Positions 28,930 through 32,404 of a stretch of 35,320 nt of DNA are shown piece after piece. Origin of the DNA: Deltaproteobacteria bacterium (GTDB taxonomy: Bacteria; Desulfobacterota; Binatia; DP-6). A program made the position numbers and the translations under genes. Location of the stretch: assembly GCA_005888095.1 (NCBI GenBank), contig VBKF01000133.1:1-35320 (forward strand), read 5' to 3'. Position 1 is the stretch's first letter. Every line of letters starts with the position of its first letter. Below the pieces are notes generated by a model. That model was not told the origin of the DNA. It made no database searches and saw nothing but the letters and a program-made list of their open reading frames with translations.

Positions 28930-29313
28930 TCAGGCCGCGGCCTTGCCGCTGCCCTTGCCGCCGCGCGGCTCCTTGGCGCTCGCGCACGCGGAGCAGAGGT
29001 TGTTCACGTTGTTCGGGTCCTCGACCAGGCCGTCGTCGATGTTGTGGCACACCTTCCGGCACGAGGCGCAGATGAAGTAGATGCCCTCGATCGTCTTGTT
29101 GATGCGCTCGCGGTTCAGGATCCGCCCCTTCAGCTTCTCGATGCGGATGCCGAGCAGCTCCTCGTACTGGCGCTTGATCTTGCGCCGGCCCGCCTCGTCC
29201 TTCGGCAGGTCCTCCTGGCCGTCGTCGGTGTGCTGCTCCTCGTCGTCGAGGATGCTGAACGCCTTGCTGTTGCTGCTGCTCGTCGCCTTGTCGCTCTTGC
29301 GCGCCCGTGCCAT
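28930..29313 (-). CDS. Small cysteine-rich zinc-ribbon-like protein of unknown function
   Basis: The 127-residue protein is charged: an Asp/Glu-rich N-terminus (DDEEQHTDDGQED), a basic helical middle (GRRKIKRQYEELLGIRIEKLKGRI), then ICASCRKVCHNID and, 17 residues on, LCSACASAK. The two CxxC pairs suggest one bound zinc. It ends in a Gly/Lys tail. I do not recognise a named family. The ATG at 29313 has GGAGGG about 11 bases upstream. It is the second gene after the 29330-29500 protein, 16 bases apart, and probably shares its promoter. Regulatory or RNA-binding roles are possible but unproven. Confidence 0.75.
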   Translation of the reverse strand: MARARKSDKATSSSNSKAFSILDDEEQHTDDGQEDLPKDEAGRRKIKRQYEELLGIRIEKLKGRILNRERINKTIEGIYFICASCRKVCHNIDDGLVEDPNNVNNLCSACASAKEPRGGKGSGKAAA

Positions 29314-29329
29314 CGGTCAGAACCCTCCG

Positions 29330-29500
29330 TCAACGCGTCCGCTCGCTGTAGCCGCAGCTCTTCTCGCACACCCAGAAGAAGCCGCGCGGCCCGAAGCCGG
29401 CGAACTGGACCACTCGCGTCTCGGCGCCGCAGCGGGGACAGCGGCGGCTCTGCCCGGCCTCCCCGCTCTTCTCCGCGGTCTTCGCCTTCTTCTCCGCCAT
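29330..29500 (-). CDS. 56-residue zinc-ribbon protein
   Basis: A short frame from ATG at 29500 encodes MAEKKAKTAEKSGEAGQSRR, then RCPRCGAETRVVQFAGFGP, RGFFWVCEKSCGYSERTR and TGA. The pattern CPRC (21-24) ... C45-x3-C49 is a classic zinc ribbon, with aromatic residues between (FGPRGFFWVC) as in compact ribbons. The N-terminus is a lysine-rich tail. It lies between a good promoter (29569-29597) and the 127-residue cysteine-rich gene. The consistent zinc-ligand spacing and codon usage support a real gene in spite of its size. Function unknown. Confidence 0.75.
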   Translation of the reverse strand: MAEKKAKTAEKSGEAGQSRRCPRCGAETRVVQFAGFGPRGFFWVCEKSCGYSERTR

Positions 29501-29568
29501 GTGCCGCCGGCGCGCCTCTGGCTAAGGGACCCCAGGCCGCGGCAGGGCTGCGCGCCGGGCTCGTCTTC

Positions 29569-29597
29569 CGTATACGAGCGCCCCGCGGCTCTGTCAA
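29569..29597 (-). promoter_or_regulatory. Promoter of the two small zinc-ribbon genes
   Basis: On the minus strand TTGACA (29592-29597) and TATACG (29569-29574) are separated by exactly 17 bases, the best sigma-70-type match in the window. Transcription would start near 29562, about 60 bases before the ATG at 29500. Confidence 0.65.
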
Positions 29598-29611
29598 GGT
29601 TACCGGCGACC

Positions 29612-29640
29612 TTGAGGCGCCAAAACTCGCGTGCTAGCGT
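29612..29640 (+). promoter_or_regulatory. Possible promoter of the tRNA-modification operon
   Basis: TTGAGG (29612-29617) and TAGCGT (29635-29640) are 17 bases apart, giving a very short leader before the ATG at 29656. It is back to back with the promoter on the minus strand; the two -35 boxes are 15 bases apart. No ribosome site is seen, so translation may be near-leaderless. Confidence 0.4.
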
Positions 29641-29655
29641 CCGACCTTTCGCGCC

Positions 29656-29856
29656 ATGCGCGTCCATCTTCGCCCGCAGCGCCGGACCGTCGAGATCCGC
29701 GGGCCTCGCCGGGTCGGGGCGCTGCTCGCCGAGCTCCGCATCCTGCCGGGTACCGCCATGGTGATCCGTGGCGACCTCCTGCTGACGGATGGCGACGTCG
29801 TCGAGGAGGGCGACGAGATCGAGATCCGAGCCGTCATCTCCGGAGGCGCGGGGTGA
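29656..29856 (+). CDS. ttuB: Ubiquitin-like sulfur carrier, TtuB/ThiS/MoaD type
   Basis: This 66-residue protein begins MRVHLRPQRRTVEIRGPRRV and has the pattern of the ThiS/MoaD/TtuB beta-grasp: two N-terminal strands, helix VGALLAELRI, strand AMVIRGDLLL, then DGDVVEEGDEIEIRAVISGG. Such carriers take sulfur as a C-terminal thiocarboxylate on Gly-Gly after adenylation by an E1-like enzyme. Here two residues, Ala-Gly, follow the Gly-Gly, so the free end is not the usual one. Its stop overlaps the GTG of the ttuA-like gene, which supports TtuB over ThiS or MoaD. No E1-like (TtuC/MoeB) gene is in the window. The gene symbol is by context and similarity. Confidence 0.82.
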   Translation: MRVHLRPQRRTVEIRGPRRVGALLAELRILPGTAMVIRGDLLLTDGDVVEEGDEIEIRAVISGGAG

Positions 29857-30785
29857 AGTGCAGACGCTGCGGCGCGCGCGCCGAGGTCCAGCTCCGGGCG
29901 CACAACACGGCCTTCTGCCGGCCCTGCTACCTCTTCTTCTTCCGCCGCCAGGTGGAGCGAGCGATCGCCGCGCAGCGGATGCTCGCCCCCGGGGAGCGCG
30001 TGCTGGTGGCGGTCTCGGGCGGCAAGGACAGCCTGGCGCTGTGGGACCTGCTCGCCGACCTCGGCTACGACACCACGGGCCTCTACCTGGGGCTCGGCAT
30101 CGGGGAGTACTCCGACTGCTCGCAGGAAAAGGTGGAGCGGTTCGCGGCGGGCCGCGGCCTCCCGCTCCGGGTGGTGAAGCTCGAGGCCGAAGGCCCCGGG
30201 CTCGGCGTGCCGGCGGTGGCCGTCGCCACGCGGCGTGCGCCCTGCGCCGCCTGTGGCACGATGAAGCGCCACTATTTCGACGCCGCGGCCTTCGCCGGCG
30301 GCTTCGACGTCCTCGCCACCGGCCACAACCTGGACGACGAGGCCGCACGGCTCCTCGGCAACGTCCTCCGCTGGCAGAAGGACCATCTGGCGCGGCAGCG
30401 CCCCGTCCTCCCGCCCACGCATCCGAAGTTCGTCCGCAAGGTGAAGCCCCTCTACCTCACGAGCGAGTACGAGACGGCGGTCTACGCCTTCATGAGGGGG
30501 ATCGACTACATCGTCGACGAGTGTCCCAACGCCGCCGGCGCCACGCAGCTGCTCTACAAGGAAGCGCTGGACCGGCTCGAGGCCGGGAGCCCCGGCACGA
30601 AGCTCGCGTTCGTGAAGGAGTTCCTGCGCACGGCGCAGCCCGCGTTCGCGGCCGTCGAGCAGCGAGAGCCGCAGGAGTGCGCGGGCTGCGGCATGCCCGC
30701 GTACGGGGCCCTCTGCTCGTTCTGCAGCCTGGTGCGCGAGGTCGAGGCCAGGCGCGCCCGCACCGCCTCCGCCGTGCCGGCGTGA
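29853..30785 (+). CDS. ttuA: TtuA-type tRNA 2-thiolation enzyme (TtuA/Ncs6 family)
   Basis: TtuA-type enzymes adenylate a tRNA uridine or ribothymidine and replace its 2-oxygen with sulfur from a ubiquitin-like carrier. The 310-residue product has zinc finger 1 (C3, C6, C22, C25), the PP-loop SGGKDS (55-60), C131 and C134 in CAACGTMKR and C224, which correspond to the three cysteines that hold the 4Fe-4S cluster in TtuA, TGHNLDDEA (157-165), and zinc finger 2 (C276, C279, C288, C291). All ligands are present. The start is a GTG at 29853 inside the stop of the carrier gene, and the stop overlaps trmI. Whether position 54 of tRNA or position 34 (as in Ncs6) is the target cannot be told directly; the bacterial context and trmI point to position 54. 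Confidence 0.9.
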   Translation: MKCRRCGARAEVQLRAHNTAFCRPCYLFFFRRQVERAIAAQRMLAPGERVLVAVSGGKDSLALWDLLADLGYDTTGLYLGLGIGEYSDCSQEKVERFAAGRGLPLRVVKLEAEGPGLGVPAVAVATRRAPCAACGTMKRHYFDAAAFAGGFDVLATGHNLDDEAARLLGNVLRWQKDHLARQRPVLPPTHPKFVRKVKPLYLTSEYETAVYAFMRGIDYIVDECPNAAGATQLLYKEALDRLEAGSPGTKLAFVKEFLRTAQPAFAAVEQREPQECAGCGMPAYGALCSFCSLVREVEARRARTASAVPA

Positions 30786-31600
30786 CGCCCGCCCCGCCGC
30801 CCGGAGAGCGGTCCGTGCTGCGCGACCAGGAGCCGGTCGTCTTCATCGACCGCAAGGAGCGGACGTACCTCCGCATCCTGCGCCGGGGTGGACGGGTGTC
30901 GGTGCGCGGCCGGCCGATCGCCTGCGACGACGTCATCGGCCGGCCGGAGGGCTCGCGCATCGAGAGCGCGAGCGGCGAGGCGCTGCTCGTCCTGCGGCCC
31001 ACCTACGCGCAGCTCATCCCGAGCCTGCCCCGGCGCGCCGAGCCGATCTATCCGAAGGACGTGGGGCCGATCCTCCTCTGGGGCGACATCGGGCCGGGCA
31101 TGCACGTGGTCGAGGTCGGCACGGGCCCGGGCGCGCTGACCCTGGCGCTGCTGCGCGCCGTCGGCCCGACGGGACGCCTCACGTCGTACGAGGCGCGCGA
31201 CGACTTTGCGACCCTGGCGCGCGACAACGTCGCCCGCTATCACGGACCCGCTGCCAACTGGACGCTCCGCGTCGCGGACGCGTTCGCCGGTCTCGACGAA
31301 CGTGACGTCGACCGGCTGATCGTCGATCTCGCCGAGCCCTGGCACCTGCTCGACGCGGTGGGCCGGACGCTCCGGCCCGGCGGCGTCATCACCGCCTTCC
31401 TCCCGACCGCGCTGCAGGTGAAGCAGCTCGTCGACGCGCTGCGCGCCGGGTGCTTCGGGGCGGTCGAGACGCTCGAGACGCTGGCCCGCTTCTGGCATGT
31501 GCGCGACCGCAGCATCCGTCCCGCGCACCGCATGGTGGCGCACACCGGCTTTCTGGTCTTCGCGCGGCGGCTCGCGGGGAATTCTGAATTGACTCCGTAA
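30782..31600 (+). CDS. trmI: tRNA (adenine-58-N1)-methyltransferase TrmI
   Basis: TrmI methylates A58 in the T-loop of tRNA. The 272-residue product (GTG at 30782) has the N-terminal small beta domain (about 14-90), YPKDVGPILLWGDIGPGMHVVEVGTGPGALTLALL (SAM-binding motif I, about 96-130), YEARDDFATLARDNV, DRLIVDLAEPWHLLD with the conserved Asp-Leu-x-x-Pro of the active site, and GGVITAFLPTALQVKQL. This matches TrmI/Trm61, including the typical DxxxPW. It overlaps ttuA by four bases, so all three genes are read together. In Thermus m1A58 helps 2-thiolation of position 54. Confidence 0.92.
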   Translation: MTPAPPPGERSVLRDQEPVVFIDRKERTYLRILRRGGRVSVRGRPIACDDVIGRPEGSRIESASGEALLVLRPTYAQLIPSLPRRAEPIYPKDVGPILLWGDIGPGMHVVEVGTGPGALTLALLRAVGPTGRLTSYEARDDFATLARDNVARYHGPAANWTLRVADAFAGLDERDVDRLIVDLAEPWHLLDAVGRTLRPGGVITAFLPTALQVKQLVDALRAGCFGAVETLETLARFWHVRDRSIRPAHRMVAHTGFLVFARRLAGNSELTP

Positions 31601-31617
31601 AAACCCTGTAGTAGCGA
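31589..31617 (+). promoter_or_regulatory. Possible internal promoter before the cyclo-ligase-like gene
   Basis: TTGACT (31589-31594) and TAGCGA (31612-31617), 17 bases apart, overlap the end of trmI. The match is moderate. If used, it would allow separate expression of the next two genes. Confidence 0.3.
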
Positions 31618-31663
31618 AGGGCGCGTGCACGGCGGGTGATGCGTGCACGCGCGCCGACTCGCG

Positions 31664-32404
31664 ATGACAAAGGCGGAAATCCGCCATAAGGTTTGGCAGA
31701 CGATCCAGCGTGAGGGCGCGGCACGGTTCCCCGGGGCGCACGGCCGCATCCCGCACTTCGTCGGCGCCGAGCAGGCGGCGCAGCTCCTGCGCGAGATGGC
31801 GGTGTGGCGACGGGCGCTCGTGGTGAAGGTCAATCCCGACGCGCCGCAGCTGCCCGTCCGGCGGCTCGCGCTCGCCGAGGGCAAGATCATCTACATGGCC
31901 GTGCCCCGCCTGAGGACCGAGAAGTGCTTCGTCGAGATCGATCCGCAGCGTCTCGGCAAGAAGGCCATGCTGGCGAGCAGCATCGCCGGCGCCTGCCGCT
32001 ACGGCCGCGCCGTGTCGCCGCGCGAGATGCGCCCCGTCGATCTCGTGGTGTGCGGCTCGGTCGCCGTCGGGCGCGACGGGGCGCGGCTCGGCAAGGGCGG
32101 CGGCTACTGCGACCTCGAGTACGGCCTGCTGCGCGAGGAAGGCAAGGTACGGGAGTCGACGCCGATTCTCACCACGGTCCACGGGGTGCAGATCGTCGCC
32201 GAGCGGATCACGATGCTGCCGCACGACCTGCCGGTGGACTTCCTGGTCACGCCGACCGAGGTGATCGCGACGCGGCCCGCCCACCCCCGCCCGCGCGGCA
32301 TCTACTGGGACCTCCTCCGGGCGCTCAAGATCAACGCCATCCCGCTGCTGCGCAAGCGCCTGAAGCGGGGGAGCACGGGCACGCCCTCGCCGCGCCGTCT
32401 CTAA
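31664..32404 (+). CDS. 5-formyltetrahydrofolate cyclo-ligase-like protein
   Basis: The product (246 residues from ATG at 31664, MTKAEIRHKV) has the fold marks of the 5-FCL/MTHFS family: an N-terminal helix, ARFPGAHGRIPHFVGAEQA, KIIYMAVPRL, and the nucleotide-binding GKGGGYCDLEYGLL. Family enzymes turn 5-formyl-THF into methenyl-THF with ATP. This longer branch (about 240 residues, against 180-200 for true MTHFS) has not been shown to have that activity, so it may have another role. A GTG at 31643 would add seven unconserved residues. It precedes the SDH protease gene by 10 bases. Confidence 0.85.
   Translation: MTKAEIRHKVWQTIQREGAARFPGAHGRIPHFVGAEQAAQLLREMAVWRRALVVKVNPDAPQLPVRRLALAEGKIIYMAVPRLRTEKCFVEIDPQRLGKKAMLASSIAGACRYGRAVSPREMRPVDLVVCGSVAVGRDGARLGKGGGYCDLEYGLLREEGKVRESTPILTTVHGVQIVAERITMLPHDLPVDFLVTPTEVIATRPAHPRPRGIYWDLLRALKINAIPLLRKRLKRGSTGTPSPRRL

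Follow-up and report, generated by a model that had tools for sequence, protein, structure and literature searches.

Does an operon that joins a sulfur carrier, a tRNA thiolase and a tRNA methyltransferase serve heat stability alone, or does it modify the tRNA T-loop in bacteria that live at ordinary temperature? The question is raised by a three-gene locus in a 35,320-nucleotide stretch (the window; contig VBKF01000133.1 of assembly GCA_005888095.1) from a Deltaproteobacteria bacterium of the class Binatia, a host not known as thermophilic. We have compared its genes with solved structures, protein families, 98 genomes of the class and a wider set of named genomes.

Three overlapping genes and their products

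The first-pass annotation of the window had described three genes joined by GTGA overlaps, and the open frames agree: both joints, ttuB/ttuA and ttuA/trmI, are overlaps of four bases with the sequence GTGA (Table 1). The GTG start of ttuA is an ATG at the same position in both relatives from the same genus (L009 and L010). When each gene was compared with three members of the family, the nine dN/dS values fell between 0.10 and 0.26, those of ttuB between 0.16 and 0.26, and the three operon genes are under purifying selection. A scan of positions 29300-31800 found no promoter and two terminator-like patterns (0.6 in shuffled sequences), and no Rfam family was found within the window.

Table 1. 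Features of the ttuB-ttuA-trmI locus, in positions of the window
Feature	Position	Strand	Description	Basis
ttuB	29656-29856	+	66 aa, ubiquitin-like sulfur carrier, end ISGG-AG	PDB, Pfam ThiS, dN/dS
Diglycine codons GGA-GGC	29842-29847	+	apparent Shine-Dalgarno role	
TtuB C-terminal cap	29848-29853	+	Ala-Gly codons after the diglycine	sequence
ttuA	29853-30785	+	310 aa, GTG start, putative tRNA 2-thiolation enzyme, TtuA (position 54) type	PDB, NCBIfam, tree
PP-loop SGGKDS	30015-30032	+	TtuA residues 55-60	invariant in alignment A1
CxxC, C131 and C134	30243-30254	+	two of three predicted Fe-S ligands	align with T. thermophilus TtuA
K138	30264-30266	+	corresponds to K137 of T. thermophilus, where TtuB is attached	invariant in alignment A1
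C224	30522-30524	+	third predicted Fe-S ligand	ECPN motif invariant in alignment A1
trmI	30782-31600	+	272 aa, GTG start, tRNA m1A58 methyltransferase family	PDB, Pfam

The ttuA product finds its best PDB match in the T. thermophilus TtuA structure 5gha (303 bits, E 2.7e-89), followed by the TtuA of P. horikoshii (241 bits) and, far behind, the U34 thiolase NcsA of M. maripaludis (91 bits). Its NCBIfam scores are 255 bits for TtuA (NF049949), 95 for NcsA and 50 for TtcA, each under the model's own curated cut-off; that of the TtuA model, 450 bits, is read as narrow and is not counted against the family because the model is named after Pyrococcus. The Pfam TtuA_LIM_N match is over its cut-off. 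An identity as NcsA/Ncs6 or TtcA was rejected, the best profile and PDB matches being TtuA instead, and no placement with either was found in a tree that held one long-branched NcsA and no TtcA. NcsA/Ncs6, which acts on U34, and TtcA, which acts on C32, have the PP-loop and the three Fe-S cysteines in common with the window enzyme (PMC8584467), from which they are set apart by the profile scores. By its sequence, then, the predicted thiolase is of the TtuA type, as first annotated, and not of the NcsA or TtcA type.

The residues that had been proposed to form the zinc sites, the PP-loop and the C131/C134/C224 trio all have their places in an alignment of eight class TtuA sequences with T. thermophilus TtuA (alignment A1). 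The zinc-site cysteines number eight (C3, C6, C22 and C25; C276, C279, C288 and C291), and seven of them are invariant in A1; the exception, C25, is a histidine in T. thermophilus.

For the trmI product the best PDB match is 1i9g (Rv2118c; E 1.3e-57), with further matches to chains named TrmI (5c1i and 5c0o) and Pfam matches over cut-off to GCD14 (86 bits) and TrmI-like_N (27.5 bits). Rv2118c is itself called MtTrmI (PMC3281791), and on this similarity the putative methyltransferase is a member of the m1A58 family.

Two neighbours accompany the operon. Downstream of trmI, a gene of the 5-formyltetrahydrofolate cyclo-ligase family (31664-32404, plus strand; Pfam) recurs after trmI in 18 of the 44 class loci, flanks permitting. 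TrmFO uses a folate, and a folate enzyme next to T-loop genes may point to a link to TrmFO. On the other side, divergent from the operon, lies a gene for a small four-cysteine, zinc-finger-like protein (28930-29313, minus strand) with no Pfam match at 0.01; such a gene is found near the operon in 27 of the 44 class loci.

A capped carrier and its diglycine codons

The ttuB product resembles T. thermophilus TtuB (PDB 5ztb, E 6.7e-9) and reaches 18.0 bits with Pfam ThiS, below the cut-off of 22.5. As encoded it ends in GG-AG, so that the diglycine stands two residues short of the very end. Such caps are common: 24 of 40 class TtuBs carry one or two extra residues, a count that leaves out L097 (broken frame) and L087, L089 and L090 (no ttuB upstream). 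In 66 TtuBs of named genomes, which leave out copies of class genomes (L098-L101) and one carrier with Ala-Gly in place of the diglycine (L176), 38 have one to three extra residues and 18 end in GG; the other ten, out of 48 frames scored as capped, have tails of more than three residues that may not be caps. The letters of the cap differ from one TtuB to another.

In the window the diglycine is encoded by GGA-GGC, and the GGAGG inside these codons (29842-29846) lies 6 bases before the GTG of ttuA. In class pairs where no more than 8 bases separate the diglycine from ttuA, a limit fixed after the class data had been seen, the first glycine codon is GGA or GGG in 19 of 19 cases, against 4 of 21 in pairs spaced further apart (Fisher 7e-8, uncorrected for relatedness); these two codons make up 0.31 of glycine codons in the class ttuA genes. 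Pairs from outside the class show it less strongly, with 26 of 40 close pairs and 9 of 26 spaced ones (p 0.023, again uncorrected for relatedness). Because of the contrast between close and spaced class pairs, the diglycine codons of ttuB appear to double as the ribosome-binding site of ttuA. We read the arrangement as one short stretch that both ends the carrier and starts the enzyme, the cap being the spacer left by the overlap of stop and start. Closeness does not force a cap, since 2 of the 19 close class pairs (L030 and L095) and 12 of the 40 close named pairs still end in GG, and 7 of the 21 spaced class pairs are capped. If the double use is real, it offers a simple, countable case of a protein end and a translation start in one stretch.

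Two variants of the junction deserve mention. In an Actinomycetota assembly (L116, 2204-3487) TtuB and TtuA share one open frame with no stop between them; this genome also encodes another TtuB, in a short separate frame that lies about 1 kb away from a TrmI. In two Nitrospira loci (L160 and L164) the ttuB tails just after the diglycine consist of near-repeats that resemble TTTCACGCCTCACG and may reflect the insertion of a small repeat between the two genes.

Distribution and the remaining pathway

The adjacency survey proposed with the first annotation was run over the class. With a match of E 1e-40 or better as the limit, 44 of the 98 class genomes, the window's own included, have TtuA; a looser limit of 1e-3 gives 77 and takes in other PP-loop enzymes. 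In 41 of the 44 loci ttuB lies directly upstream of ttuA. The trmI gene lies within the fetched flank in 41, or in 42 when the second contig of G043 is included, an assembly split so that trmI follows the other piece of ttuA; in G052 and G094 it lies elsewhere. TrmFO (E 1e-50) is found in 90 of the 98 genomes and in 41 of the 44 with TtuA, the other three giving no match at that limit. TrmI (E 1e-60 or better) is found in 92 of the 98. The two T-loop modifications had been proposed to form a coupled pair: all 44 genomes with TtuA have TrmI, which fits, and the coupling is one-sided because 48 of the 54 genomes without TtuA have TrmI as well. As a marker for TtuA, TrmI was rejected for the same reason.

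A scan of named genomes returned at least 528 relatives, of which the best 80 were kept, four of them class members. Of the 76 others among these best 80, 67 have ttuB upstream of ttuA, and in 42 trmI follows downstream; nine named Nitrospirota loci have no ttuB nearby, and two loci counted as lacking trmI (L141 and L150) end early downstream. By their titles, the listed relatives include Acidimicrobiia and other Actinomycetota, Nitrospirota, Rokubacteria, Bacillota, Armatimonadota, Thermaceae and one archaeon. One of eight TtuA-bearing named genomes gave no TrmI match at 1e-20.

In a tree of 105 TtuA rows (26 selected from the 44 class members, 76 named and 3 solved), the window's enzyme groups with class members alone, in a clade (99/98) that comprises 24 of their rows and is separate from Thermus; the other two class rows fall with Thermaceae (98/91). 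The label of trmI beside ttuA outside the class requires five to six changes on this tree. Two relatives titled Bifidobacterium breve (L123 and L127) fall among Acidimicrobiia and lake Actinomycetota, and their titles look like mislabels.

The window's own genome (5.46 Mb, estimated as 100% complete and 2.4% contaminated) holds TrmFO (612.8 bits, over cut-off), one JAMM protease over the Pfam cut-off with the full HxH-x7-SxxD motif, and a 406-residue protein in which an N-terminal rhodanese domain is joined to a ThiF/E1 domain that passes the NCBIfam MoeB cut-off. TtuC- and TtuD-like genes, which the first-pass annotation had suggested looking for, are present as a rhodanese-ThiF fusion. Four sulfur carriers were seen in the genome: TtuB (GG-AG), a protein like SAMP1/MoaD (GG-A), and two that end in GG, which we take to be MoaD and ThiS from their sequences and neighbours. 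A second E1 is encoded next to genes for cysteine synthase and threonine synthase (L038, 6379-10601), in a cluster where the capped SAMP1/MoaD-like carrier and E1-like proteins are also found and which looks like a carrier-dependent route to cysteine or methionine. A further cluster (L040, 4297-10338) may be a ubiquitin-like system: next to a protein resembling E1 it has a JAMM-like match that stays below cut-off, a frame of ATPase type and further unassigned frames. No tRNA gene was found in nine stretches of the genome.

Taken together, the three genes very probably form an operon with coupled translation that serves two modifications of the T-loop, and the likely output is m5s2U54 with m1A58 because the same genome holds TrmFO, the rhodanese-E1 fusion and JAMM. 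From these genes we infer the substrate position, the E1 that serves TtuB, the removal of the cap, the modification itself and its benefit. In the pathway we propose, the two-residue cap would be removed from TtuB, most likely by the JAMM protease, and the MoeB-type E1 fused to rhodanese, encoded elsewhere in the genome, would adenylate and thiocarboxylate the trimmed carrier. TtuA would then adenylate U54 or m5U54 at C2 and use its Fe-S cluster for sulfur insertion, TrmFO would supply the m5 group, and TrmI would make m1A58 and so speed thiolation, an effect that m1A58 has on the TtuA of T. thermophilus (PMC6418473).

This pathway follows the T. thermophilus system of TtuA, TtuB, TtuC and TtuD with TrmFO and TrmI, both of the latter likewise present in the window's genome, in its protein families, catalytic residues and attachment lysine. 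It differs from the Thermus system in the fusion of the TtuC- and TtuD-like domains in one protein, in the capped TtuB, in a host not known as thermophilic and in the single overlapping operon, whereas in Thermus arciformis trmI is found on a different contig from ttuA and ttuB. A further capped sulfur carrier with a JAMM protease is QbsE. The capped carriers PtmS2 and PtmS3 likewise extend one or two residues past the diglycine and come with JAMM proteases (PMC6006322), and the window's genome has a JAMM as well; they serve natural products, and in the window's genome no JAMM lies in the stretches retrieved around ttuB. The MoaD-MoaE fusion of Deinococcus radiodurans, cut by DRJAMM (PMC8832034), joins carrier and enzyme in frame as L116 does, whose product would presumably be cut too; the window's TtuB and TtuA, unlike that fusion, are separate proteins. 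In the titles and abstract openings of mostly non-subscription literature, we found no report of a ttuB-ttuA-trmI operon or of a capped TtuB. The word 2-sulfurtransferase occurs in one listed study of Actinobacteria from a spring at 50 C (PMC7325909). The enzymes are members of known families, and their arrangement looks new.

Cap removal, substrate and temperature

The cap could be a neutral by-product of gene overlap that the E1 tolerates or that a general carboxypeptidase trims in place of JAMM, and we give this a real chance, if somewhat less than an even one: cap letters vary, and lack of a cap does not make JAMM rarer, with matches over cut-off in 16 of 16 uncapped and 21 of 24 capped class genomes, the three capped genomes that lack it including one that is 99% complete. 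The named genomes picked for this test agree (18 of 23 capped, 8 of 10 uncapped), so that JAMM was rejected as a predictor of the cap. Within flanks of up to 1.5 kb in the 44 class loci and up to 2.5 kb in the best 80 named ones, no JAMM match lies near the operon; three of those 80 have ThiF-like matches in their flanks, all Thermanaeromonas or Thermoanaerobacter. Against a neutral cap stand the statement that sulfur carriers whose ends are capped typically depend on a protease, QbsD being an example (PMC6006322), and the loss of about half the thiouridine when T. thermophilus loses its JAMM (PMC3980101). We keep JAMM as the likeliest single candidate for cap removal. We consider it very unlikely that the TtuA-like enzyme acts on a different position of tRNA or on something other than tRNA, even though TtuA and NcsA are related and CtaC of closthioamide synthesis, which thioamidates a peptide, has the same Fe-S motif (PMC6772006). 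The enzyme is far nearer TtuA than NcsA, a gene for a T-loop methyltransferase adjoins it in 41 of the 44 class loci, and K138 is conserved as in TtuA, where T. thermophilus K137 is the site of TtuB attachment and eukaryotic Ncs6 has an arginine (PMC3980101).

The remaining alternative returns to heat: the operon would be the remnant of a thermophilic ancestor, or the host itself heat-loving, with heat stability as the sole role. One review describes m5s2U54 as a nucleoside typical of and specific to thermophiles and reports it absent from mesophiles (PMC6313347), and another places TtuA in thermophilic bacteria (PMC8395126). Some orders of Binatota inhabit thermal sites, and genomes of one order, UTPRO1, come from soil and hydrothermal sites (PMC8262859); on that ground we go no further than to call the window's host a likely mesophile. 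No 16S rRNA was found in its assembly. Two composition indices were computed with crude gene picking. IVYWREL was 0.420 in the window, 0.427 in another contig of the genome and 0.448 in a contig of the same family (G006), compared with 0.406 in Nitrospira moscoviensis, 0.454 in Thermus arciformis and 0.426 in Thermoanaerobacter wiegelii; (E+K)/(Q+H) was 1.65, 1.76, 1.95, 1.55, 2.63 and 4.35 in the same order. IVYWREL leans warm for G006, near Thermus, and (E+K)/(Q+H) leans ordinary for all three Binatota samples. The two class TtuAs that group with Thermaceae also favour heat. The window's enzyme stands apart from Thermus within the class clade, dN/dS is low, and titles of class relatives hold '30cm' (L098, same family) and 'Offshore_80m' (L101). 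N. moscoviensis has TtuA, a TtuB ending in GG, TrmI and JAMM, its ttuB and trmI not adjoining ttuA, and strain M-1, which has the genome record matched here, is cultured at 39 C (PMC6606698). We therefore think heat as the sole role unlikely. The thermophilic past first suggested for the operon keeps some footing in the thermal-site orders, but the presence of these genes in non-thermophilic bacteria makes it unnecessary.

Since related gene sets occur in bacteria that are not heat-loving, T-loop modification may not be only for heat. A bolder reading, to which we give slightly less than an even chance, is that 2-thiolation of U54 is widespread at ordinary temperature through a ttuB-ttuA-trmI operon in several phyla, with TtuB often made as a capped proprotein and its diglycine codons serving, in the class, as the ribosome-binding site of ttuA as well. 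If U54 is indeed thiolated at ordinary temperature, the modification would have a role other than heat stability, and with its thiolation genes in a bacterium cultured at 39 C, N. moscoviensis makes the question of thermophile specificity directly testable.
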